Assembly: GCA_026416715.1 (NCBI GenBank)
Contig: JAOAEQ010000007.1
Coordinates: 41,658-105,657, forward strand
DNA length: 64,000 nt
Source: a bacterium
GTDB taxonomy: Bacteria > UBP4 > UBA4092 > JAOAEQ01
Direction: 5' to 3'
Shown: piece after piece, positions 1,683 through 64,000 of the stretch
Position numbering within the stretch: the stretch's first letter is position 1
How the letters are laid out: each line of letters starts with the position of its first letter
Translations under genes and position numbers: made by a program
Notes under the pieces: generated by a model
Seen by the model: only the letters and a program-made list of their open reading frames with translations
Database searches by the model: none
Told to the model about the DNA's origin: nothing

Positions 1683-2804
1683 TTATTTAATTTGGACGAA
1701 TTTCCCTTCTTTTACGATATAAACATACATAGCTTTATTGGTGGTATCACCATGTTCATCGAAATTAGTTATTCCGACTACGCCATTGAAATCTTTCGTT
1801 TCACGAATTGCTTTAACTACCGCTGCTCGGTCGGTTGTTCCAGCGCGTTTTATTGCGTCAATAATGATATTCGCTGCATCGTATGCAAAGGGTGCGTAGG
1901 TTTTTATGGCACCATATTTAGCAGTAAATTTATTGATAAACTGTTTTGCCGTTTCGACTTTATCCCAAGATGGAACTGAAAACGTTATAATTGTTCCTTC
2001 TGCTGCTTTTCCAGCGATATCAAGAAATCCAGGAACATATAATCCATCGCCGCCCATAAATTGGGTTTGCATACCAAGTTCTTTCATTTGTTTTGCAAGT
2101 AATCCCGCTTCCGGATACATGCCACCAAAATAAACCAGATCCGGATTTTTGGATTTAATCTTGGTTAATATTGCCGTAAAATCACGGTCTCCTTGCGTTA
2201 TTCCTTCAAATAAGATTTCTTTTAATCCTAATTGATGAACTCCTTTACGGAATTCTTCAGCTAACCCCTGACCATACTGACTTTTATCATGCAGGATAGC
2301 AATTCTCTTTTTCCCGAGTTCTTTAATTGCGAATTCCGCACCGAACGGACCTTGGAATGAATCCGTTGCACACATGCGAAATATTTCAGGGTATCCCTGT
2401 AACGTCAATTCCGGATTCGTTGATGATGGCGTTATCATTGCCAGTTGCGCTTCATGATACTTTTTCGACGCAGGAATAGAACAGTTACTGTTTAAATGGC
2501 CAACAACCGCTACCACTGTTGGGTCAGTGATGAGTTTTTGCGCAACGGCAACTGCTTCTTTCGGGTCATGTTTATCATCCATCGGAACAAGTTCGAGTTT
2601 TTTCCCCAGAACACCACCAGCAGCATTCGCTTCTTCTATCGCCATTAATACTCCATTTTTCATATCAATCCCAATTTCTGCTTGGTCACCAGTTAAGGGT
2701 GCAGCGAATCCAATTCGAATAACATTTGTTTGCTGCTGTGCGCAACTGAAAAAGAATAATCCGATAAGAACAATGAAACCTATTACAATAATATTATTTT
2801 TCAC
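1683..2804 (-). CDS. Branched-chain amino-acid-type ABC substrate-binding lipoprotein (LivJ/LivK family)
   Basis: This is a periplasmic-binding-protein type I fold of the Leu/Ile/Val family, expected to be tethered to the membrane and to present amino acids or similar ligands to an ABC importer. The N-terminus has a hydrophobic stretch ending in FFFSC, a lipobox, followed by AQQQ; the mature part opens with IRIGFAAPLTG and contains VVGHLNSNCS and ITPSSTNPELT, typical ligand-site segments of the family. An in-frame GTG at 2813 lies inside a perfect AAGGAGGTGA ribosome-binding site, so I choose the next GTG at 2804, eight bases after that site. No permease or ATPase genes lie next to it, so its transporter partner must be elsewhere. 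Ligand unknown. Confidence 0.88.
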   Translation of the reverse strand: MKNNIIVIGFIVLIGLFFFSCAQQQTNVIRIGFAAPLTGDQAEIGIDMKNGVLMAIEEANAAGGVLGKKLELVPMDDKHDPKEAVAVAQKLITDPTVVAVVGHLNSNCSIPASKKYHEAQLAMITPSSTNPELTLQGYPEIFRMCATDSFQGPFGAEFAIKELGKKRIAILHDKSQYGQGLAEEFRKGVHQLGLKEILFEGITQGDRDFTAILTKIKSKNPDLVYFGGMYPEAGLLAKQMKELGMQTQFMGGDGLYVPGFLDIAGKAAEGTIITFSVPSWDKVETAKQFINKFTAKYGAIKTYAPFAYDAANIIIDAIKRAGTTDRAAVVKAIRETKDFNGVVGITNFDEHGDTTNKAMYVYIVKEGKFVQIK

Positions 2805-2912
2805 ATTTTTCACCTCCTTGAGTGAATTTTAGGGTTATATGCAACTGTAGAAAATTATATCATTATTTTCTTAATTTGCTCTAATTTCCTTTTCCCTTAG
2901 CTTATTTATTTC

Positions 2913-4661
2913 CTAGAATATTGGGCTTAATCTATATTGTAGATTATAGAGTCTCGAATAGATACCGTTTGCATCGAGAAGTTCTTGATGGGTTCCTATT
3001 TCCGCAACTGTCCCATCTTCAAGTACAATAATCTTATCCGCATGCTGGATGGTTGATAACCGATGCGCAATAATGATACTAGTTCGATTTGCGGTAAGAT
3101 TTTTTAACGCATCTTGGATTAATAGTTCCGTTTCAGAATCAACCGATGACGTCGCTTCGTCGAGTATCAGAATCGGCGCATTTTTTAGAATAGCACGCGC
3201 AATCGAAATCCGCTGTTTCTGCCCACCGGAAAGTTTAACTCCACGTTCACCAATTACCGTATCATATTGCTGGGGTAACTCTAAAATGAATTCATGTGCA
3301 TGCGCTGCTTTCGCAGCGGCGATGATTTCTGCTTCAGTGGCTTTTAAATTACCATATGCAATATTTTCTTTAACCGTTCCAGTGAATAGAAATACCTCCT
3401 GCAAGACCAGAGCGATTTTTGACCGCAGATAACTAACTGATAAATCCCGTAAATCATAACCGGATAATGTGATTTTTCCTTCATTCGGGTCGTAGAATCG
3501 TGGGATAAGATTGATAATGGTAGTTTTTCCAGCACCGCTAGAACCAACCAGCGCTACGGTCTCTCCGTCTTCAATTCGAAACGATGCATGCAAAAGGACC
3601 GGAAATCCGGGTTTATAAGCAAAGGTGACGTTATGGAATTCGATATCATGTTTGGTCAATTTCGGTTTTTGTGCATGTTTAGTATCCTTAATATCAGGTT
3701 CAGTATCAATGATTTCATAGATTCGTTTTCCACCAACTGCCGCTCGTTGGACCGTGTCAACTACTCGCCCAAGTTGGAGTATTGGCCGATAAAAATATTG
3801 CAGGTATAAAAAGAAGGCAACCAGATTGGCAATAGATAATTGTCCGAGTAACGCGAGTTTTCCACCGTACCAAATAACGAGAATCATACCAATACTTCCA
3901 GTAAGTTCAACCAGCGGGAATCGAGTGGCAAGAAACCAAATCGTTTTCATCGTTGACTGATAATGGGCAATGCTTTTCTCTTCGAACCGTTCTAATTCGT
4001 ATTCCTCCCGATTAAACGATTGGATAACCGAAATGCCGGAGAGATTATCCTGCATTTTTGCGCCGATTTCAGCAAGTTTCTGTTGAGCAGCATGATATGC
4101 GGTATGGACTTTTTTCCCATAATTTCGAACCAGATATACAAGGATCGGTATTGGAATCAAGGTGACTAATGCTAGTCGCCAATCAAGCCAGAATAGTATT
4201 GATGTCGCTCCGATGAAGAGAATAATTGAAGTAATGATATCCGGAATCGCATGGGAGATTAGCTCTTCAATCATTGCAAGGTCGCTAATCATTCGCGTAG
4301 TAATTTGTCCTGTCTGTCGGTCATGATAATATCGTAACGAAAGTTTTTGCAAATGTTCATATAGTTGAACGCGAATATCGGATAACGTGCCCCAACCAAC
4401 CTGATGCGCTAGAAAAACGTTACCGAAACTGGCAAGCGCCCGCAGGATATATAATCCGAGTGCGAGCAAAGCGAGTTGATTTATCATTCCCCAGCCGGAT
4501 TGACCGAGCGATTCCAGTTTCTGAATTATCGCAACAAGTTGTCGAACGACTAACGGTGCCACTAATTCCGCTGCGGTTAATATCAGCATACTTAATATCG
4601 CTAAAATCATTTTATGCTGATATTTACGCGCTTGATTGAGGATACGGAGGATATATGTCAT
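2913..4661 (-). CDS. ABC exporter, fused membrane and ATPase domains (MsbA/MdlB-like)
   Basis: A 582-residue half-transporter expected to work as a homo- or heterodimer in the inner membrane. Residues 1-310 hold six membrane helices of the type I exporter fold. The nucleotide-binding domain follows, with Walker A GSSGAGKTT near residue 373, Q-loop LVLQE, signature LSGGQ at 477, Walker B LILDEATSS around 497-506 and the H-loop histidine near 533. Length and order fit lipid, peptide or drug exporters such as MsbA; the substrate cannot be read from the sequence. Because the organism makes lipid A, an MsbA role is possible, but the gene is not next to any lpx gene. It sits between the binding protein and the acetyltransferase, with separate spacers on both sides. 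Confidence 0.88.
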   Translation of the reverse strand: MTYILRILNQARKYQHKMILAILSMLILTAAELVAPLVVRQLVAIIQKLESLGQSGWGMINQLALLALGLYILRALASFGNVFLAHQVGWGTLSDIRVQLYEHLQKLSLRYYHDRQTGQITTRMISDLAMIEELISHAIPDIITSIILFIGATSILFWLDWRLALVTLIPIPILVYLVRNYGKKVHTAYHAAQQKLAEIGAKMQDNLSGISVIQSFNREEYELERFEEKSIAHYQSTMKTIWFLATRFPLVELTGSIGMILVIWYGGKLALLGQLSIANLVAFFLYLQYFYRPILQLGRVVDTVQRAAVGGKRIYEIIDTEPDIKDTKHAQKPKLTKHDIEFHNVTFAYKPGFPVLLHASFRIEDGETVALVGSSGAGKTTIINLIPRFYDPNEGKITLSGYDLRDLSVSYLRSKIALVLQEVFLFTGTVKENIAYGNLKATEAEIIAAAKAAHAHEFILELPQQYDTVIGERGVKLSGGQKQRISIARAILKNAPILILDEATSSVDSETELLIQDALKNLTANRTSIIIAHRLSTIQHADKIIVLEDGTVAEIGTHQELLDANGIYSRLYNLQYRLSPIF

Positions 4662-4734: not shown

Positions 4735-5919
4735 TTAGAAGTAATCTAGAATATGGGTTGGTTTATCGAAGAATGCGGTGTTTAAGAACGACAATTTAGC
4801 AGGTCTCTTGATTTCCAATTTTCCATCAATCGCTAACTCTTCCGCTGACCGATAGCCGGAATAAAGCTCTGAAAATGTTTGTATGGTGCAACAGAACTCC
4901 GGCGTTTTTGTCGTTCTATGAATTGCTGCTTTACCCGCTTCAATATCAAGTTCCCACGGACCGATATTCCAATCTCCGCAATCGTCTTGAATTGAAAAAA
5001 TGACCTTGCCTTGTGCTTGTGGGGGATATCCACGGAGTTCAACCGCTTTCTGAACATCAACTACCCGGAATTGAAAAACTGGTTCCATAGCGATTTTTGC
5101 GGAAAACGGTTCGCGAAAATGTTTCCAGAGTATTGGATAGTATGGAGTAAATAATTGAAATCGGGAAATATTATTTGGCAACTGCTGCATGAATCCGAAT
5201 AACGCTTTATACGCCGTTAAATTCAAACAAGCGAATTCTTTAATGATACATTCGTGGCCGAATTCTACTCGATTATGGGTGCACAGGAGATATCCAATCG
5301 GTTCGCCGTTATCTTCAATAATATATCCTTGCCCTTTTTCTTTCATAATCTGCTCGATTTTTTTTATCCATAACTCTTTCGTTCGTTGAACGCAAAGATT
5401 ATATTTCATCGCGTATTGCGAATAGATTTTATCTAAAAGCGGTATTTCTTTTTCCGGTTCGCAATATCGAACTAACTTCTTCTCATCAAACGGTCGAATT
5501 CCATCTTGTTTAAATTCACGATATACATACCGATGCCCGCAGAGTTCCCAACCAAATTTACGATAGTATGCATGCGAAAATGGATAAAGAATCGAAGTCC
5601 ATTGTTTATGTTCTCGCATATCACGCACACTATCCCGCATAAGCGCTCCCGCATATCCTTTTCCCTGACAATCTGCTCGAGTTGCAACTCCTCCAATACC
5701 GCCCATCGAAATAACGTTTCCGCCAACCCAGATTTTATACGGGATTATCTGGATTATACTAACAATATGTTTTCCTTCAAATATCGCACGGGTATTCGAT
5801 AATACCGAATTCTGCGCCCATTGTTGACCGATTTCTAAACCGGTTTTGTAGCTATTATTGTATATTTCTGCTATTAACTGTCGTTCCGATTCTTTAACCT
5901 GGCGAATGGTTGGGGTCAT
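4735..5919 (-). CDS. Eis-like GNAT N-acetyltransferase with SCP2-like C-terminal domain
   Basis: The 394 residues match the three-part layout of the Eis/Rv2416c family: an N-terminal GNAT domain, a second degenerate GNAT-like domain, and a C-terminal sterol-carrier-protein-2-like fold. The acetyl-CoA pyrophosphate loop is visible as VATRADCQGKGYAGALM near residues 80-97, preceded by the usual GGIGG strand; the C-terminal part (about 295-394) includes the AELAIDGKLEI region and ends in aromatic DYF, the carboxylate end used for catalysis in Eis enzymes. A good AAAGGAA ribosome-binding site lies seven to eight bases before the ATG at 5919. Known family members acetylate amines, including aminoglycosides and lysines, but the substrate here is unknown. 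Confidence 0.85.
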   Translation of the reverse strand: MTPTIRQVKESERQLIAEIYNNSYKTGLEIGQQWAQNSVLSNTRAIFEGKHIVSIIQIIPYKIWVGGNVISMGGIGGVATRADCQGKGYAGALMRDSVRDMREHKQWTSILYPFSHAYYRKFGWELCGHRYVYREFKQDGIRPFDEKKLVRYCEPEKEIPLLDKIYSQYAMKYNLCVQRTKELWIKKIEQIMKEKGQGYIIEDNGEPIGYLLCTHNRVEFGHECIIKEFACLNLTAYKALFGFMQQLPNNISRFQLFTPYYPILWKHFREPFSAKIAMEPVFQFRVVDVQKAVELRGYPPQAQGKVIFSIQDDCGDWNIGPWELDIEAGKAAIHRTTKTPEFCCTIQTFSELYSGYRSAEELAIDGKLEIKRPAKLSFLNTAFFDKPTHILDYF

Positions 5920-5969: not shown

Positions 5970-6923
5970 TTATTTATCTAAAATACTTGGTAACGAAGTC
6001 TGTGCGATATATTTTCCCATCGTATAGAAATGGTTCATATGGTCTTGTCCGGTTTCACCAGCAAACTCGCGAACGTGGAAATTCCCTTGATCAACTGTAG
6101 ATAATAACCGCATTGTTTTCCACGGTTCATCCAGAGATAGAGAAGAGGTGTCCTCGTGCTTCACGACACGTTGTAATCCAAGTTTTTTAATCAGAAAATC
6201 AGCGGTTTTTGTTGTGCTGGCATAGGTTTTCGGGTCAATCTGTGAATGGGTGATCCACATTGTTTTCTTACCTCGCACTGCATCTTGCGCGAACTGGAGA
6301 AACATTTGCATTTGTTCCGCTGGCGGGGTATGAGTTGTAGTATCTAAACCTGCATGGATGGAATCGAGAAAAACCGTATCTGTTATTTTCTTATAATACG
6401 CCGGGACTTGCAGGATTTCTCGCATTGCGCCGAATCCTGCACTGAACGAGGTTAAACAGAGTCTGCCTAATCGTGGACGATGAACGATACTATTTTTATC
6501 CAACGTTTCCATAATTTCGGTCAACAACCGACCGAACTCTTTTTTATCTTTATATTTCGCTGTATATACTCCAGAGAGTCCGCGTAGCGGTATCGTTACC
6601 ACCACTGCATTCTTACCGGTTGGATAAAAACTCTGTTCCACAACCCAAGAGGCACCATGGAAATGAATTAGAAGATTAACGTTCTTCTTTTTCGCATGAA
6701 AATAAGGTGGAACATACATAACCCCGGTTGATAACGCAAAATGCTGACCGGGTAACTCGATTTGTTGTGGAGCGATTATGAGCGGTGCTAACGGAGTAGA
6801 GGTTGTCGTCATTATTGATTGCGTGGTACCATTCGACATCGCTTGACTAGTAGTAACATCAATTATTACGATGAAAAACCAGATTACAACAAAATTAAGT
6901 TGGGTAATTTTTCTTATTATCAT
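5970..6923 (-). CDS. Secreted alpha/beta-hydrolase-like protein
   Basis: A 317-residue protein with an N-terminal hydrophobic segment (residues 10-25) that looks like a signal peptide or anchor. The body has features of the alpha/beta hydrolase fold: LLIHFHG at 84-90 is like the strand and oxyanion HG motif, and SFSAGFGA around residue 161 is a nucleophile elbow with Ser161 as the likely catalytic serine. VFLDS (Asp187) and the histidine in GQDHMNHF near residue 296 are candidates for the rest of the triad, although the usual aspartate position is not certain. The second half carries WITHSQIDP, where a hydrolase often has its acid residue. I do not recognise the exact subfamily or substrate. 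No ribosome-binding site precedes the ATG. Confidence 0.6.
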   Translation of the reverse strand: MIIRKITQLNFVVIWFFIVIIDVTTSQAMSNGTTQSIMTTTSTPLAPLIIAPQQIELPGQHFALSTGVMYVPPYFHAKKKNVNLLIHFHGASWVVEQSFYPTGKNAVVVTIPLRGLSGVYTAKYKDKKEFGRLLTEIMETLDKNSIVHRPRLGRLCLTSFSAGFGAMREILQVPAYYKKITDTVFLDSIHAGLDTTTHTPPAEQMQMFLQFAQDAVRGKKTMWITHSQIDPKTYASTTKTADFLIKKLGLQRVVKHEDTSSLSLDEPWKTMRLLSTVDQGNFHVREFAGETGQDHMNHFYTMGKYIAQTSLPSILDK

Positions 6924-56773: not shown

Positions 56774-57841
56774 TTAATTCGTTAGGTGGTCGAAAGGGAA
56801 AGGTTGTTGCATCAGTTCTTCCAGCCGGATATGAGATAATAAGCTCCAGTCCAATCCATTGATCAATGATGGCGATTCTCGCAGGAGAAGCGGATGGTTA
56901 TCTTCAGAGATGATTTTAAGGAATACCTCGGTTAATTGAAGGTCAAATTGAGTTCCAGCACAGCGAGTAAATTCTGCAATCAACTCCGATTTACTTAACG
57001 GAGCACGATAGGGTCGTCCAGAAATCATTGCATCATAGCTATCAGCAATACTAACGATACGAGCACCAAGCGGAATTTGTTCTCCGGTAAGTCCTTGCGG
57101 ATATCCTTTACCATCGACTCGTTCTTGATGGTAGAAGATAACCGGAATACGGTCGTGTAAAAATTCAATTGGTTTTAAAATATATGCTCCAATAACTGGA
57201 TGTAACTTACAGATTTCATATTCTTCCTTGGACAACGGCGTTGTTTTCTTAAGAATCGCATCGCTAATACCAATTTTGCCTATGTCGTGCAGTAAAGCGG
57301 CTTGGCGCAACGAAATAATTTCCTTCCCAGTTAATCCAATTTTGCGCGCCAATATTTCTACAACTTTACTTACTCGTTGTGAATGACCGCTCGTATGATG
57401 GTCGCGTGCATCAATGGCGGTAATTAACGTTTCAATCGTCGCTAAAAAATGCCGACCGAGTTCATCAATAATTTGAGTGCGCTGTTTCAGAATCTGGTGA
57501 ACAAATAATCGTAATTGATTGATATTGACCGGTTTAGTAAAATAATATGTTGCCCCGGCACGCATCGCTTCAACTGCGGAATCAATAGCGCCGAATGCCG
57601 TGAGAATAATTACTGCCGTTTCCGGATGACGTTTTTTGATTTCTTTTAACAGAGTTAACCCATCCATTTCCGGCATCCGAATATCTGTAACGGTTAAATC
57701 AACATGCGAATTGTCAATAACTTGCAAAGCTTCTTGCGGATTCCGCGAAACTTTTACTTCACATTCTGAATCAGATAATCCGAAATACAGAGCATCAAGA
57801 ATACTTTCTTCATCATCGACAACGAGAATGTTATATCGCAT
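56774..57841 (-). CDS. Response regulator with HD-GYP (cyclic-di-GMP phosphodiesterase) output domain
   Basis: 355 residues from the ATG at 57841, which sits just past the stop of the upstream kinase; an upstream GTG-type start at 57862 would overlap it. The receiver domain has ILVVDDEES, the phospho-acceptor Asp in LTVTDIRMPEMDG (Asp53 in this numbering) and the conserved LTA and FTKPV positions. A helical linker leads to an HD-GYP domain with HTSGHSQRVS, LLHDIGKIG, HPVIGAY and ERVDGKGYPQGL (the GYP motif). Such domains degrade cyclic-di-GMP. It forms a two-component pair with the neighbouring kinase. Confidence 0.94.
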   Translation of the reverse strand: MRYNILVVDDEESILDALYFGLSDSECEVKVSRNPQEALQVIDNSHVDLTVTDIRMPEMDGLTLLKEIKKRHPETAVIILTAFGAIDSAVEAMRAGATYYFTKPVNINQLRLFVHQILKQRTQIIDELGRHFLATIETLITAIDARDHHTSGHSQRVSKVVEILARKIGLTGKEIISLRQAALLHDIGKIGISDAILKKTTPLSKEEYEICKLHPVIGAYILKPIEFLHDRIPVIFYHQERVDGKGYPQGLTGEQIPLGARIVSIADSYDAMISGRPYRAPLSKSELIAEFTRCAGTQFDLQLTEVFLKIISEDNHPLLLRESPSLINGLDWSLLSHIRLEELMQQPFPFDHLTN

Positions 57842-57845
57842 AACC

Positions 57846-59708
57846 TTAATTTCCTTTCGCAAGGTTCATATGCTGATTAGTATCAGGGTTTATCGATTTG
57901 GCATATTGCTGAACACCATTTTTAACCGGAAGTTGGATAACGAATTTCGTTTTAACTTCCGGCTGACTTTCTACGGTGATAATCCCATGATGTTCGTTAA
58001 TAATCCGTTGTGCAACTGATAACCCGAGTCCGCTACCCCGCATTTTGGTAGTAAAAAATGGCGTAAAAATTTTATCTAAGTCTTTCGCAACAATGCCCGG
58101 TCCCGTATCTTCAAAAGAAATTTCAACGTATTCAATCGTATGTTTGGTGAACGTACGGGTGGCAATGGTTAACGTTCGTTGTCCAGTTTTTTGGAGCGCC
58201 ATCGCTTCAATCGCATTGAGAACAATATTGAGAAATACTTGTTCAAGTTTTTGTTCATCTGCCATAATCATTGGCAAGGAATAATCAAATTGTGCCACCA
58301 GATTAACCTGGGTTTTTTTCGCTTGTTCCTGGACTAAATAGATTATTCGGTTCAAAATACTATTAACCTGCACTTTCTGGAACGATAGCGGATGTGGTCG
58401 TGCAAAATCTAAAAGTTCATTGAGTACATTATTTAATCGAGTTAGTTCCCGAGAAAATGCTTGTTGCATTTTTGCGCGGAACTCCGGTTGATTATATTTT
58501 TCCGGTTGATTCATCATTTCCGTAAATCCGAGCAACGATTGGATCGGGTTCTTAATTTCGTGGGCGATAACCGACGCCATTTTGCCGAGAACAACCAGCC
58601 GTTCATTTTGTCGAATTGTTTCTTGCTGACGAATAAGCTCCTGAGTCATAACATTAAACGAATATGCAAGTTTTCCTAGTTCATCCCGTCGGTTTAGTCC
58701 GGATTTCGTTCGCCAATCGAGGTTCCCTGCGGCAACCTGTTGTGCGCCGAAACTCAACTGTTGTATCGGATGAACCAATCGTTGTGCAGAGATAAATCCG
58801 ATAAGTGTGGCTAAAATCGTACAAATAATCACCAATCCGATAATCTGTTGTTTCATTTTCGCTGCGCCAGCAAAAGCTTCTGCAGTAGTTTGTTCGATCG
58901 CTAAAATCCAACCTAGTCTAGGCACAATTGCGCTGGTTCCCAAACTTCGTATCCCTTCAGCGGAAATATATTCAGCGTCAGCATTTTTCCCAAGCGTTGC
59001 CGATCGAATAATCGGAATATTTATCATACTCCTGCCGGTTAATACCAATGATTTCCGCGGATGGGCAATCAGCCGACCGTAAGCTGAAGTTAAATATGCT
59101 TTTCCGGTTTTCCCAAGTCGAATAGAGTCAACTAAATCCCAGATTCCACGAAGGTTAACTTCCGCAACCAGCGCCCCTGAAATTTCTCCGTATTGTTTAA
59201 TTGGCGCTGCGATTTGAATATATGGTAGATGGGTTGTGGGAGAAATATATACTTCAGAAACATAGAGGTTTCCGGCGAGCGCTTTTTGTACCGCAACAGC
59301 ATTGGCTAGGTTCGACAATGGTTGTTCAAGCGAACTATGTACAATTTCTTTTCCGTATGTATCAGTTATATAGAGCGATTCAAATTCTTTAAATCGGCGT
59401 GAAATATTTCGAATGATTGTTTCCTGTTGCCAGTTATCCATATGTGCAACTCCGATGAGTTCCGCAGTAGATTTAACTAAATTTATTGCATTACTCACAT
59501 ACAGTTGGATCTCGTTTGCGGTTTGGTTGGTGACGTTCCGGTTATATTCAGTAACGGCATGCCGTATTGCTGTTTGACTCGTTTTAACGAGTAGATATCC
59601 TGTGCCGATTATGGGTAATACTACCGCTGGGATTATCAATAGCAATTCTTTAATAATAAGATGTTCACGCATTCGATTGAATAATTTTGTAACCATAATT
59701 GATTTCAT
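57846..59708 (-). CDS. Sensor histidine kinase with extracellular sensor and HAMP domain
   Basis: 620 residues. A first membrane segment at about 17-37 precedes a periplasmic Cache-like sensor domain (residues 45-275, with LGKTGKAYLTSAYGRLIAHPR); a second segment at about 287-308 leads to a HAMP domain. The catalytic core has the H-box VIAHEIKNPIQSLLGF with the phospho-acceptor histidine near residue 383, the N-box FLNIVLNAIEAM, FEDTGPGI and the FTTKMRGSGLGLSVA lid. It phosphorylates the downstream HD-GYP response regulator and so probably tunes cyclic-di-GMP levels in response to a small ligand. Confidence 0.94.
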   Translation of the reverse strand: MKSIMVTKLFNRMREHLIIKELLLIIPAVVLPIIGTGYLLVKTSQTAIRHAVTEYNRNVTNQTANEIQLYVSNAINLVKSTAELIGVAHMDNWQQETIIRNISRRFKEFESLYITDTYGKEIVHSSLEQPLSNLANAVAVQKALAGNLYVSEVYISPTTHLPYIQIAAPIKQYGEISGALVAEVNLRGIWDLVDSIRLGKTGKAYLTSAYGRLIAHPRKSLVLTGRSMINIPIIRSATLGKNADAEYISAEGIRSLGTSAIVPRLGWILAIEQTTAEAFAGAAKMKQQIIGLVIICTILATLIGFISAQRLVHPIQQLSFGAQQVAAGNLDWRTKSGLNRRDELGKLAYSFNVMTQELIRQQETIRQNERLVVLGKMASVIAHEIKNPIQSLLGFTEMMNQPEKYNQPEFRAKMQQAFSRELTRLNNVLNELLDFARPHPLSFQKVQVNSILNRIIYLVQEQAKKTQVNLVAQFDYSLPMIMADEQKLEQVFLNIVLNAIEAMALQKTGQRTLTIATRTFTKHTIEYVEISFEDTGPGIVAKDLDKIFTPFFTTKMRGSGLGLSVAQRIINEHHGIITVESQPEVKTKFVIQLPVKNGVQQYAKSINPDTNQHMNLAKGN

Positions 59709-59884
59709 TTTTTCGGGGTTAATATCCCCAATTTTATCGTTATCTTTCCCAACGTTTACAATCGGGGTTATTTGCTGTCATCATCTGCGTTTAATTCAAC
59801 CACAAAACGCTCCCACAACATTCAAGGATTTGGCATTCCGTTATATAAATGTTGAACAGTGAATTTCCGCATTTGATTTTGGTT

Positions 59885-61459
59885 TTATAATTTAATATCC
59901 CAATCTTTTAGATTCCAGTAGATATTATCGCTACTGCGTGGATGAATATAAGCAATTCGGGTATTCGCACCGGATAATTTATATGGAAAAAATAACAATA
60001 TCCCGGGTGGATTTACCGCTAGTTCATATTGAATCTGGTCGATTAGATCTTTCCGCAAGTCTGGGTCAACCGTAACCTGCAATTGGTCATATATTTTATC
60101 TAAAGCATTGTTAGTATATGAAAACGCGTTCAATCCATTTTGGATTTGGTCTGAATGGAAGAAGGCATACCCGAAATTGGTTTCATATAGTGAGTCCATT
60201 TCGGCAATCGCGGCATCGAATTTTTTCGGAAGTAGATACTCATTTATCAGCTGAGATACCGGTAAAGATTTCAGATATAGATTAATTCCGAGCTCCTGTA
60301 GTTGCTGGTCGAGAATAAGTGCTAGTTGTCGCTTGAGCGTGTTATCTTCATCAATCAGGAGCGTAAATTCAAATGGAACTCCTTGTTTTTTTAGCTGTCG
60401 TGTTTTTTTGTCAATAGACCAGCCGGCATCGTTAAGTAGTTTAAGTGCGGTTCGTGGCTGATATTGAAACGATGGAGTCGTCCGGTTATATAAAGAACTA
60501 TCTGGCGGAAAAATACTCCTAGCAATACTTCCTTCTCCGAGCAGAACTTCATCAATCATTGCTTGTTTATCCACCGCATAATTGAGCGCTTTCCGAATAC
60601 GAACATCTGCAAATAACGGTGAGCGATTATTCAGTATTACCATATAATAATAACGGGCAGGCGTTTTATACCCTTGAATTTTCGGATTAGTTAATAGCAC
60701 TTTGTAATCTTCCGGAAGAACCCCTTCAGCGACATCAATTTGTTCTGTCATCAACTGCGACCAGGTGACAGTTTGATTCGGTAACGAGCGAACAATAATT
60801 CGGTCGAGATTCGGTTTTCCAAGAAAATAATCGGGATTAGCGGTCAGGATTAAGGTTTCATCAATCCATTGTTCAACTTTGAATGGGCCGGTACCAATCG
60901 GATGACGATTAAATGCTAAGTTCGGATTCTGTAAATCGGTTATCGTCAGCCGATGTTTGGGAAGTATAGCGATTCGCATCGTGTATAGAAAGTTTGTGTT
61001 CGGTTCTTTAAAAACTATCCGTAGCTGATACCGACCGAGAACTTCGATATGGTCAACGGAATTAAATTCACTCGCTAAATAACTGGCTATTTTCGGATGC
61101 ATAATCGCATCGTAGGTGAATTTAACATCATCAGCGGTGAGTTCCACTCCATCGTGAAACTTCACACCAGCCCGAAGATGAATGGTTAACTCTTTCCGGT
61201 CGGGACTATATTGCCAGCGTTGCGCAAGATGTGGGATGAGCTCAAGCTGGTCATTCATTTGAATTAATCCATCAAATATGTTTGTTTCAATTGCAGTTAA
61301 GGTTGATTCCGCAACCAGAATTGGATTTATTTTATCTCCGAGCACGCCGCCAATTACCACCGTTTTCAGTTTCGGCTTATTTTGAATAAACGAACAACCG
61401 AGGAATATAGCAATCCCAATTGATGTTATTGCAATGAATATTCGGTAGTAATATTTCAT
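59885..61459 (-). CDS. Oligopeptide/dipeptide-type ABC substrate-binding lipoprotein (SBP family 5)
   Basis: 524 residues. The signal sequence ends in a lipobox (IFLGC) at about residue 22. The mature part (PILVAESTLTAIETNIFDGLIQ, LTIHLRAGVKFHDGVELTADDVKFTYDAI, GTGPFKVEQW, VRIRKALNYAVDKQAMI) is typical of DppA/OppA-type binding proteins. These deliver peptides, nickel or sugars to an ABC importer. No permease or ATPase genes are adjacent, so it works with components coded elsewhere. It lies between the histidine kinase and the pseudopilin genes, all on the minus strand. Confidence 0.9.
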   Translation of the reverse strand: MKYYYRIFIAITSIGIAIFLGCSFIQNKPKLKTVVIGGVLGDKINPILVAESTLTAIETNIFDGLIQMNDQLELIPHLAQRWQYSPDRKELTIHLRAGVKFHDGVELTADDVKFTYDAIMHPKIASYLASEFNSVDHIEVLGRYQLRIVFKEPNTNFLYTMRIAILPKHRLTITDLQNPNLAFNRHPIGTGPFKVEQWIDETLILTANPDYFLGKPNLDRIIVRSLPNQTVTWSQLMTEQIDVAEGVLPEDYKVLLTNPKIQGYKTPARYYYMVILNNRSPLFADVRIRKALNYAVDKQAMIDEVLLGEGSIARSIFPPDSSLYNRTTPSFQYQPRTALKLLNDAGWSIDKKTRQLKKQGVPFEFTLLIDEDNTLKRQLALILDQQLQELGINLYLKSLPVSQLINEYLLPKKFDAAIAEMDSLYETNFGYAFFHSDQIQNGLNAFSYTNNALDKIYDQLQVTVDPDLRKDLIDQIQYELAVNPPGILLFFPYKLSGANTRIAYIHPRSSDNIYWNLKDWDIKL

Positions 61460-61539: not shown

Positions 61540-62151
61540 TTATGGACCATACCGATAGATATCACCGTCGCTAACCACACCGTTCGTTGGGTCGTATTGA
61601 CTTGGTGTTGGGTTCATCCCTTCATGGTCATTATCCATATCCGGACCATTACTCATTAAGAACCATTTCCATTCATAATGCCATAACCCTGGATCCATCG
61701 GGTCGGATTCGTCAGGAAAACCTTCGTCCGATTGAACATACACATATGGGGTTAGTATTCGTGTTCCATCATAAGCGCTTGTATAATGGAATATATCTAA
61801 TGGAATTGAACGAATATACGCTACTGGTGTAGTTAATCTGCTCTGAACTACCCACATATCGTATGACATTAAATCGTCCGGCGGAACTCCAAATGGCGGA
61901 TATGCAGTATTATCAACATGATATGCTTCGATAGCGGTTGCTAATGACCGTAATTCCGATTTAACCCGAGTAACTTTCGAACGCATTTGCGCAGCGAGAA
62001 AGTTTGGAATCGCTATTGCCGCTAGAATAGCGATAATCGCTACAACGATTAATAATTCAATGAGCGTAAATCCGGTTAAAATTAAAAATGCCTGATGATT
62101 TTTATGATTGCTCAATGCAAATAAGTGATACGGTGTAGTTTTTTGTTTCAT
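61540..62151 (-). CDS. Type IV pilin-like/type II secretion pseudopilin
   Basis: 203 residues with a prepilin leader of about 27 residues and the class III cleavage site GFTLIELLIVVAIIAILAAI; the first mature residue is Phe and Glu5 is conserved. The hydrophobic helix continues to IPNFLAAQMRSKVTRVKSELRSLATAIEAYHVDNTAYPP, as in GspG-like proteins with an extended C-terminal part. The C-terminal region (SNGPDMDNDHEGMNPTP) is acidic and may bind calcium. It would be processed by a prepilin peptidase coded elsewhere. It stands alone on the strand. Confidence 0.9.
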   Translation of the reverse strand: MKQKTTPYHLFALSNHKNHQAFLILTGFTLIELLIVVAIIAILAAIAIPNFLAAQMRSKVTRVKSELRSLATAIEAYHVDNTAYPPFGVPPDDLMSYDMWVVQSRLTTPVAYIRSIPLDIFHYTSAYDGTRILTPYVYVQSDEGFPDESDPMDPGLWHYEWKWFLMSNGPDMDNDHEGMNPTPSQYDPTNGVVSDGDIYRYGP

Positions 62152-62488: not shown

Positions 62489-62523
62489 AAAAAAAGGAGA
62501 TGGTATCGCCCAATACCATCTCC
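62489..62523 (-). terminator. Rho-independent terminator of the small peptide gene
   Basis: Read on the minus strand, GGAGATGGTAT and ATACCATCTCC pair perfectly over 11 bp around a TGGGCG loop, followed by seven Ts. This is the best intrinsic terminator in the window. It lies 46 bases after the stop of the 21-residue peptide gene. Confidence 0.9.
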
Positions 62524-62529
62524 CAACCC

Positions 62530-62555
62530 ATTATTGCAGATATATCAGCAATAAT
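62530..62555 (-). other. Near-palindromic hairpin after the peptide gene
   Basis: ATTATTGC (62530-62537) pairs with GCAATAAT (62548-62555), and the bases between form a GATATATC palindrome, so the whole stem is nearly continuous. It stands between the peptide stop codon and the terminator and may protect or process the short message. Confidence 0.5.
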
Positions 62556-62569
62556 CTGCTAAAGGCGTA

Positions 62570-62635
62570 TTAATATTTGAACCAGGCACATACTTTTTCT
62601 GGTTTTACGCCTTTTTTAAGGACTATGACCTTCAC
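62570..62635 (-). CDS. 21-residue peptide gene next to the radical SAM/SPASM maturase (likely RiPP precursor)
   Basis: The GTG at 62635 follows an outstanding ribosome-binding site (AGGAGGGAGG, seven to eight bases upstream) and opens a 21-codon frame ending with TAA at 62570. The product begins MKVIVLKKGVKP and ends EKVCAWFKY: a basic N-terminal half and an aromatic, single-cysteine C-terminal half. Hairpins lie before and after it, and a strong terminator follows. It is downstream of, and on the same strand as, a radical SAM/SPASM peptide-maturase gene, the arrangement expected of a ribosomally made, post-translationally modified peptide or a cofactor precursor such as PqqA or MftA. I cannot name the family. 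Confidence 0.72.
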   Translation of the reverse strand: MKVIVLKKGVKPEKVCAWFKY

Positions 62636-62673
62636 GCCTACCTCCCTCCTCTCTCCGTAATTTCGGTTTTATC

Positions 62674-62700
62674 TCTTCACTCAAAGCTCTAGAGTGAAGA
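62674..62700 (-). other. 9-bp hairpin in the leader of the peptide gene
   Basis: TCTTCACTC (62674-62682) pairs with GAGTGAAGA (62692-62700). It sits about 40 bases before the ribosome-binding site of the peptide gene. Confidence 0.5.
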
Positions 62701-62713
62701 TGGATGTATATAC

Positions 62714-62750
62714 CCACCTGAACTCTGACGCCCAATTCAGAGTTCGGTGG
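62714..62750 (-). other. Hairpin just after the radical SAM/SPASM gene
   Basis: CCACCTGAACTCTGA (62714-62728) pairs with TCAGAGTTCGGTGG (62737-62750) with one bulged base. It begins 11 bases after the maturase stop codon. There is no T-run, so it may be a processing or stabilising element separating maturase and peptide message levels. Confidence 0.5.
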
Positions 62751-62760
62751 TGTTATTCAT

Positions 62761-64000
62761 TCATAATTTACTACTCCCTTCGTTAACACTAACCGTTGCA
62801 TAATCCGATTTTAATACGGCTAGTCCAACTGAATCGAAATAAGATTTTTCACAAACGACTTGAGTATAATCACCAAACTTAACCTGCGCACAATACCGGC
62901 ATCCAGCGCCGCAAATCGGGAAATAGATACAATCGAGACATTCTTTTGGGGCATTAACATTGATAAAATCTGAATACCGCTGATTAAACCCCGTGCGGAT
63001 ATCACCGATGATAAATTCTGGTCTTCCAACGAACCCTGCGCATTTATAAAAGTTCCCAACCGGGTCAATTACCAGACTATTATCGAAATTGAATTCGCAA
63101 GGACCGAGAACCAGATAATCCGGAACCGAGAATCCGCGTGATTTAGCTTCATTCCGAAGATGCAACATCGCAGATAAATCCGATTCGGCAAAAGAGATAC
63201 TCGCGCATTGCGCTGCAACCGCTGAAGTTTTTTGGTTTGTATTCAGAATCGGTTTAAATGAAATATGTTTAATGCGGTCGGTCAATCCCAGTTCTTTTAA
63301 TTCATCGAGCATTTCCGAAAAACTCGCGATATTTTCCGCATCGTAGTTTCCGGATACTATCAGGTTAATTTCCTCCGGTAACGTTAAAAGATTATCAAAA
63401 ATCGCTTGATACGAATCAATCTGGGTTTTACTCGGTCGCTTTCGATTATGGAACTCGCGATTCCCGTCGATTGTGACTTTAACTTGGGTTATTCGGCAAT
63501 CAGCCAGTTTTCTTGCTGTCGATTTATATAGGAGCACACCATTTGAAATGAGTTCTGCATGATAAGTTATATTCTTGGTGTCGCAAAACGCGCATATCGT
63601 TGAACTAATTTTTGTTATCGCTTGCTGGTTTAATAAAGGTTCTCCGCCGTAAAAGCAAATTCTCACCTGGCGAATTTGCTTTTCAGATATCTGCTGTTGA
63701 ATCCACTGAATTACCCGATTCTGCGTTTCCGCATCCATAAATATCGGTTGAATTACTCCTTCTTCAACGCAATACACACAAGCGAGATTACAGGCGTAGG
63801 TAGTTAAAATCGTTAAATTTAACGTGTGATTATTATTTCGAATATCAGCTAACCAAGTACTGATGGTTTCAGTTTCGTCAATGGTATCAGGGATTAAGAA
63901 TTTTTCTTCAATAAGCGGAGTTAATGAATCATCAGCTTGAATTGAATCAGGAAATTGGGTGAGAACATCTTTAGTCTGCTGATTGAGATATACAAGTGAT
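62761..64000 (-). CDS. Radical SAM/SPASM peptide-modifying enzyme, N-terminus cut by window edge
   Basis: The frame is open through the right edge, giving at least 412 residues; the start is outside. Upstream residues (SLVYLNQQTKDVLTQF) resemble the winged N-terminal part of peptide maturases. TTYACNLACVYCVEEG carries the CxxxCxxC motif of the radical SAM cluster, CFYGGEPLLN follows, and the C-terminal SPASM part has ECLDCIYFPICGAGCRYC plus a later Cys, enough ligands for auxiliary 4Fe-4S clusters. Such enzymes form carbon-carbon, thioether or similar bonds in short peptides. The 21-residue peptide gene directly downstream, with its single Cys and Trp-Phe-Lys-Tyr end, is the obvious candidate substrate. 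Confidence 0.9.
   Translation of the reverse strand, partial: SLVYLNQQTKDVLTQFPDSIQADDSLTPLIEEKFLIPDTIDETETISTWLADIRNNNHTLNLTILTTYACNLACVYCVEEGVIQPIFMDAETQNRVIQWIQQQISEKQIRQVRICFYGGEPLLNQQAITKISSTICAFCDTKNITYHAELISNGVLLYKSTARKLADCRITQVKVTIDGNREFHNRKRPSKTQIDSYQAIFDNLLTLPEEINLIVSGNYDAENIASFSEMLDELKELGLTDRIKHISFKPILNTNQKTSAVAAQCASISFAESDLSAMLHLRNEAKSRGFSVPDYLVLGPCEFNFDNSLVIDPVGNFYKCAGFVGRPEFIIGDIRTGFNQRYSDFINVNAPKECLDCIYFPICGAGCRYCAQVKFGDYTQVVCEKSYFDSVGLAVLKSDYATVSVNEGSSKL

Follow-up and report, generated by a model that had tools for sequence, protein, structure and literature searches.

The window, a 64,000-nt stretch of contig JAOAEQ010000007.1, encodes a 21-residue precursor peptide, MKVIVLKKGVKPEKVCAWFKY, beside a radical SAM/SPASM maturase and close to genes for a solute-binding protein of the SBP_5 type, a sensor histidine kinase and a response regulator. 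The combination of maturase, tiny peptide, SBP_5 and kinase recurs in the Omnitrophota, the Auribacterota and several small unnamed phyla. The assignment of the substrate and of its partners is well supported, and from the locus we infer a signalling role for the modified peptide. A RiPP signalling unit, in which this peptide is read by the SBP_5 protein and signals through the dCache kinase to the HD-GYP regulator, with c-di-GMP as the output in this genome, appears somewhat probable. The locus (Table 1) adds a peptide family that is absent from every library searched and links a so far uncharacterised group of radical SAM maturases with a particular receptor and kinase. It would also provide a concrete example, open to testing, of RiPP signalling in poorly known diderm phyla, among them the Omnitrophota.

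Table 1. Positions of the features of the peptide locus within the window
Feature	Position	Strand	Remarks
Response regulator, HD-GYP-type (HD_5) output	56774-57862	minus	Frame overlaps the kinase gene
Sensor histidine kinase, dCache_1-HAMP-HisKA-HATPase	57846-59708	minus	
SBP_bac_5 oligopeptide/nickel-type solute-binding protein	59885-61459	minus	Likely lipobox FLGC
Type II pseudopilin-like protein	61540-62151	minus	Between the terminator and the SBP gene
Intrinsic terminator 3' of the peptide gene	62495-62524	minus	13-bp stem, 4-nt loop, U-run
Precursor peptide gene	62570-62635	minus	GTG start, 21 codons (21 aa)
Shine-Dalgarno sequence GGAGGGAGGT	within 62636-62653 (3' end of the spacer)	minus	Anti-Shine-Dalgarno duplex -13.4 kcal/mol
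Spacer between maturase and peptide genes, 125 nt	62636-62760	minus	Two stable stem-loops; Shine-Dalgarno sequence at the 3' end
Radical SAM/SPASM peptide maturase	62761-64000, off the window edge	minus	Sister to the geopeptide maturases

The precursor peptide family and its maturase

The stop codon of the maturase gene and the GTG of the peptide gene are separated by exactly 125 nt. The anti-Shine-Dalgarno duplex formed by the upstream GGAGGGAGGT (-13.4 kcal/mol) ranks first among 984 short ORFs of the window, while folding z-scores of -4.6 and -4.2 were obtained for the spacer and the 3' flank of the peptide gene, respectively. No match of the 21-mer was found in Pfam or NCBIfam at E<=1. With a profile built from 11 peptides of other genomes, including that of genome G015 and excluding that of the window, the window frame is placed first among 985 window ORFs (E 1.1e-5). 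A profile of all 29 peptides recovers it at E 0.02, and it still ranks first when the G015 peptide is removed from the latter (E 0.09). It is likewise first with the G015 peptide as the lone query, where none of 20000 shuffles scored equally well, and with a lone, distant Auribacterota peptide. Judged by its sequence, the 21-codon frame is a real gene and not a chance occurrence. A first-pass annotation of this DNA had described the GTG-started gene at this distance from the maturase, its near-perfect ribosome-binding site, the hairpins on both sides and the intrinsic terminator, and had considered the peptide unlisted, all of which was borne out. The leader would span approximately residues 1-14 and the core approximately the terminal VCAWFKY.

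The sampling across the analysis comprised 847 genomes. A maturase with 33% identity to that of the window was found in G015, among 60 other genomes across the domain, and the ATG-started MKVLKIKKVVRQKAVCSWYLY is encoded directly 3' of it, in the position observed in the window. Further members include MKLTVIRVGKPGPLGCVILR in G016, with variants in G163 and G302, MEIKIIKADPDPDIGNLCPFFVT in Omnitrophota SURF_12 and MKLKVIKKGVKSALKCAAGPCCKQGPVNFFPEP in the Auribacterota, while most Omnitrophota genomes with a match encode peptides of the form ME[IV]Ixx(G)...CC[WFYM]P.GT. A short beta-like leader of approximately M-[KE]-[VIL]-x-[VI]-[IL]-x-x-G and one or two cysteines before a variable tail are constant in the family; the cores vary strongly, with Cys as the sole residue common to all of them. 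The peptides of G179 and G386 are the most divergent and are weak assignments made on position, Shine-Dalgarno sequence and a late Cys only. The C-terminus C-A-W-[FY]-x-Y, put forward earlier as a mark of the family, was rejected since only the G015 peptide (C-S-W-Y-L-Y) resembles the window end. Codon-level conservation pertains to the G016-type relatives and not to the window genome: six of the seven codon differences between the peptides of two species of the G016 genus are synonymous, while in comparison with a third, more distant G016-type species non-synonymous changes are at least as frequent (2 vs 4 and 3 vs 5), all of them in or near the core. The proposal of the first-pass annotation that the peptide is the maturase substrate is strongly supported by conservation of the frame beside related maturases across phyla, and the window peptide is very probably the substrate of the adjoining enzyme. 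The family is probably under-counted, as precursors this small easily escape gene callers.

The window carries 412 residues of the 436-aa maturase (L005 4419-5729), the gene of which starts 72 nt past the window edge; the first 24 residues lie outside and one edge codon reads N. Its radical SAM motif, CNLACVYC (CX3CX2C), and its SPASM set, C325-x13-G-x4-C344 ... C378-x2-C381-x5-C387-x3-C391 ... C407, the cysteines of which had been noticed in the first pass, conform to the CX3CX2C motif and the seven-cysteine pattern CX9-15GX4C...CX2CX5CX3C...C of SPASM maturases, and all of these cysteines are invariant in alignments of 10 and 24 members. The SPASM model TIGR04085 scores 48.7 bits (cut-off 27). 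Among families, TIGR04280, the geopeptide maturase, scores highest, with 273.8 bits for the 412 residues in the window and 282.4 bits for the genome protein, values below the cut-off of 400 bits, so that by sequence score the enzyme is a neighbour and not a member of this NCBIfam family; the scores for PapB (125.8 bits, cut-off 340) and SCIFF (105.2 bits, cut-off 425) are far under their thresholds. In a maturase tree of 51 rows, where the SBP was used partly for the grouping label and never for the tree itself, the window enzyme groups with those of SURF_12, G015 and G016/G163 (support 95/87), each of which is accompanied by a one-Cys peptide of 20-23 aa and an SBP_5, and the SBP-linked enzymes are split from four geopeptide-type ones at 100/100.

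The AlphaFold model of the maturase (pLDDT 82.7) matches ChlB, CteB and anSME at Z 27-28, with CteB (5wgg) as the nearest solved structure by sequence (E 4e-49, Z 28). CteB and TigE align with the model starting at residue 1 of the window-encoded protein and thereby span the recognition region; the N-terminal recognition assignment derives from this structural alignment, for a region with a local pLDDT of 55-68 from which the first 24 residues are absent. A PqqD/RRE domain is absent from the N-terminus of every maturase member by Pfam. Used alone as a query against the genome contigs, the window maturase retrieved no relatives; most among the matches listed for the maturase alignment are generic radical SAM proteins, and a plasmid search yielded distant maturases only. 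Three more radical SAM genes of the window genome (G000:C22 6171-7728, two adjacent; C25 43885-44295) are distant from the window maturase.

Several other small precursors were observed. A different Omnitrophota radical SAM clade is associated with its own tiny peptides, four frames ending in ...CR[SC]GRVLW, e.g. MKARKINKAKATKKSKKKLSRYCRSGRVLW (L096 ~7656; L105 7591-7683; L106 ~360 and 5216-5296). Three tandem precursors of ~94 aa with NTGCP-type repeat ends are encoded upstream of a maturase in G044 (L043, oriented 2079-3009), and G223 (L075, oriented 6320-6517) encodes, beside a TIGR04280-like maturase, a 65-aa precursor in which Cys recurs at intervals of four to five residues.

Solute-binding protein, kinase and regulator genes

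The SBP, kinase and regulator genes (56774-61459), not connected with the peptide in the first-pass annotation, are all located downstream of the maturase gene on its strand. An SBP_5 gene is found close by on the same strand in 26 of the 27 clade loci, the contig of the 27th starting at the maturase. The kinase is present in 22 of these loci by BLAST and in a 23rd (L204) by Pfam; four further loci are cut by the contig end. Neither SBP_5 nor kinase was found at any of 20 outgroup maturase loci. The usual Omnitrophota operon encodes a TonB receptor, SBP_5, the peptide, the maturase, an ABC exporter, the kinase and a regulator. The TonB receptor, present in most Omnitrophota loci, is nearest to BtuB and has the PQQ transporter as a distant relative; no TonB receptor or exporter was detected by BLAST at the G015, G016, G163 and G179 loci. 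The regulator outputs vary by genome and are of the HD-GYP, LuxR, LytTR or NtrC type, a variation that suits a sensing front end. The pseudopilin-like gene is probably not a core part, because no relative of it was found at the other loci. In all three G016-type genomes, the peptide and maturase genes are preceded by a gene for a conserved protein of ~187 aa that has no Pfam match (L037 4724-5287; likewise 5' of the peptide gene in L067 and L185).

No linked exporter or protease was found within the window. Past its right edge, L005 6115-10381 (+) carries genes for a divergent GntR regulator, an ABC ATPase and a pair of ABC-2 permease-like proteins, of which one is fused to WD40-like repeats. 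This set, which starts ~0.4 kb upstream of the maturase and is the nearest transporter, is not conserved in the family and is possibly the exporter, or unrelated.

The window SBP is ~30-34% identical, over nearly its full length, to most Omnitrophota and G016-type SBPs, while its paralogues in the same genome match over parts only. Both this SBP and the kinase sensor are most similar to those of this system and, among the collected loci, the sensor domain matches kinases of this system only. The closest folds to the SBP model (pLDDT 90) are NikZ, AppA and related proteins: the nickel-chelate proteins NikZ are the top structural matches, NikZ/NikA the nearest fold, and the nearest sequences and folds include AppA, which was solved with a nonapeptide. 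This modelled likeness would allow either a peptide or a chelate ligand; MbnE (5ICQ) is not among the structural or sequence matches listed. None of the 28 BPD-type permease genes of the window genome is on this contig, so that the SBP has no cognate permease there, and no TonB plug domain was found in this genome, which is estimated to be 100% complete and encodes Omp85, and therefore has an outer membrane. Since the contig lacks a BPD permease and the genome a TonB plug, the SBP most likely serves as a receptor on the outer side of the inner membrane rather than as part of an importer. The adjacency of this orphan SBP gene to a sensor kinase gene is conserved, as is characteristic of an SBP/histidine kinase pair. 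The dCache domain is reported to bind AI-2 (PMC7584622), and that of the window kinase could sense something else directly.

Proposed signalling role and alternatives

In the proposed unit, the short N-terminal leader strand of the 21-aa precursor would be bound by the N-terminal recognition region of the maturase, and the radical SAM/SPASM enzyme would act on the single Cys of the C-terminal core, or on a residue beside it, most likely by formation of a thioether. The core would then be cut free and exported by a putative route, and presumably be captured as a ligand outside the inner membrane by the orphan SBP_5 lipoprotein, which would in turn signal to the neighbouring dCache histidine kinase. 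Phosphorylation of the HD-GYP regulator by this kinase would change c-di-GMP in the window genome. The nearest studied enzymes make Cys thioethers; since Cys is also the only common core residue, a Cys-centred modification is our best guess, with a likelihood slightly above even. The same invariance of Cys makes a purely aromatic cross-link less likely; aromatic residues vary, and neither the G015 nor the G016 peptide contains acidic acceptors of the PapB type. CteB is a thioether enzyme according to the title of 5wgg.

A modified-peptide signal is favoured because receptor and kinase are constant while the TonB receptor, exporter and regulator output vary. Of the two roles suggested earlier for the product, cofactor or signal, the linked SBP, kinase and regulator speak for the latter. 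The missing window-linked exporter or protease, NikZ as the top structural match of the SBP and the variable cores count against signalling, and the BtuB-like TonB receptor at most Omnitrophota loci fits chelate or vitamin-like uptake as well as sensing. That the system constitutes an undescribed diderm signalling class, in which a radical-SAM-modified pheromone of ~20 residues is read by an orphan SBP_5 lipoprotein and a dCache kinase across several candidate phyla and feeds exchangeable outputs (c-di-GMP, LuxR, LytTR, NtrC), is an evenly balanced prospect.

The Cys peptide may instead be a methanobactin-like metallophore, which would be exported, bind metal, return through a TonB receptor and be captured by the SBP, the kinase reporting supply. 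MbnE, an OppA/AppA-type protein, takes Cu-Mbn after MbnT (PMC7558416), and both the Omnitrophota operon, which combines all of these components, and the NikZ/NikA-like SBP fold are in keeping with such a role. However, the window genome is devoid of TonB plug domains despite its outer membrane, neither TonB receptor nor exporter was detected by BLAST at the G015, G016, G163 and G179 loci, a single-Cys core of few residues provides few metal ligands, there are no metal-related neighbours, and the Omnitrophota receptor is nearest to BtuB, rendering metallophore or chelate uptake unlikely overall, although this reading stays open for the TonB-bearing relatives. A bacteriocin or self-protective antimicrobial RiPP, the level of which is monitored by the SBP and kinase, would account for the ABC exporters adjoining many Omnitrophota members and for the divergent GntR and ABC-2 transporter adjoining the maturase of the window, an arrangement familiar from resistance of the bacitracin type; it is improbable given that there is no conserved immunity gene, that the ABC-2 set is not a conserved feature of the family and that receptor and kinase, not the exporter, are the most constant partners. 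The stable hairpins on both sides and the terminator would suit an attenuator leader peptide controlling the downstream operon, a highly improbable reading that was rejected on gene order, since the homologous frame of G016, the Auribacterota and the Omnitrophota is positioned 5' of the maturase gene or between it and the SBP gene, and its amino acid sequence is conserved. Least probable is a precursor of a redox cofactor similar to PQQ or mycofactocin, suggested by the tiny precursor, the SPASM enzyme and the distant PQQ transporter relationship of the Omnitrophota receptor: the core of a cofactor precursor would have to be invariant, whereas it differs between genomes, and neither an oxidoreductase nor any additional biosynthetic gene is linked to the locus.

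Comparison with known systems

Within the literature collection searched, no paper pairs 'geopeptide' with 'radical SAM', and searches for RiPPs with SBP, kinase or TonB returned none on this system. The closest maturase family is that of the geopeptide system (TIGR04280 maturase, TIGR04229 peptide), which forms the neighbouring tree clade and whose peptides similarly contain a short [IV][IV]-rich leader with a G, followed by Cys. In contrast, the window maturase falls under the family cut-off and its peptide has no TIGR04229 match, and all four geopeptide-type loci encode a TonB receptor, which was not found at the window locus (L005), and lack SBP_5 and kinase. To our knowledge, the TonB receptor is not part of the written definition of the geopeptide family. 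The SPASM architecture is also common to the CteB/SCIFF and PapB ranthipeptide maturases, the precursors of which are longer and contain several Cys, whereas the window precursor comprises 21 residues with one Cys and falls outside the ranthipeptide/SCIFF definition.

As in the methanobactin operons (MbnT, MbnE, exporter), a RiPP is combined here with an OppA/AppA-type SBP and, in the Omnitrophota, with a TonB receptor and exporter. Unlike in methanobactin synthesis, which is characterised by the MbnB/MbnC pair, the modifying enzyme found here is a radical SAM protein, a two-component system takes the place of FecIR-like regulation, and TonB-dependent re-import has no plug domain to rely on in the window genome. 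In LuxP-LuxQ and TorT-TorS, a solute-binding protein without a permease of its own functions beside a sensor kinase, and the SBP and kinase described here may work similarly by analogy. They differ from these pairs in that the SBP belongs to the SBP_bac_5 family, the kinase is of the dCache type and the proposed ligand would be the cell's own modified peptide.
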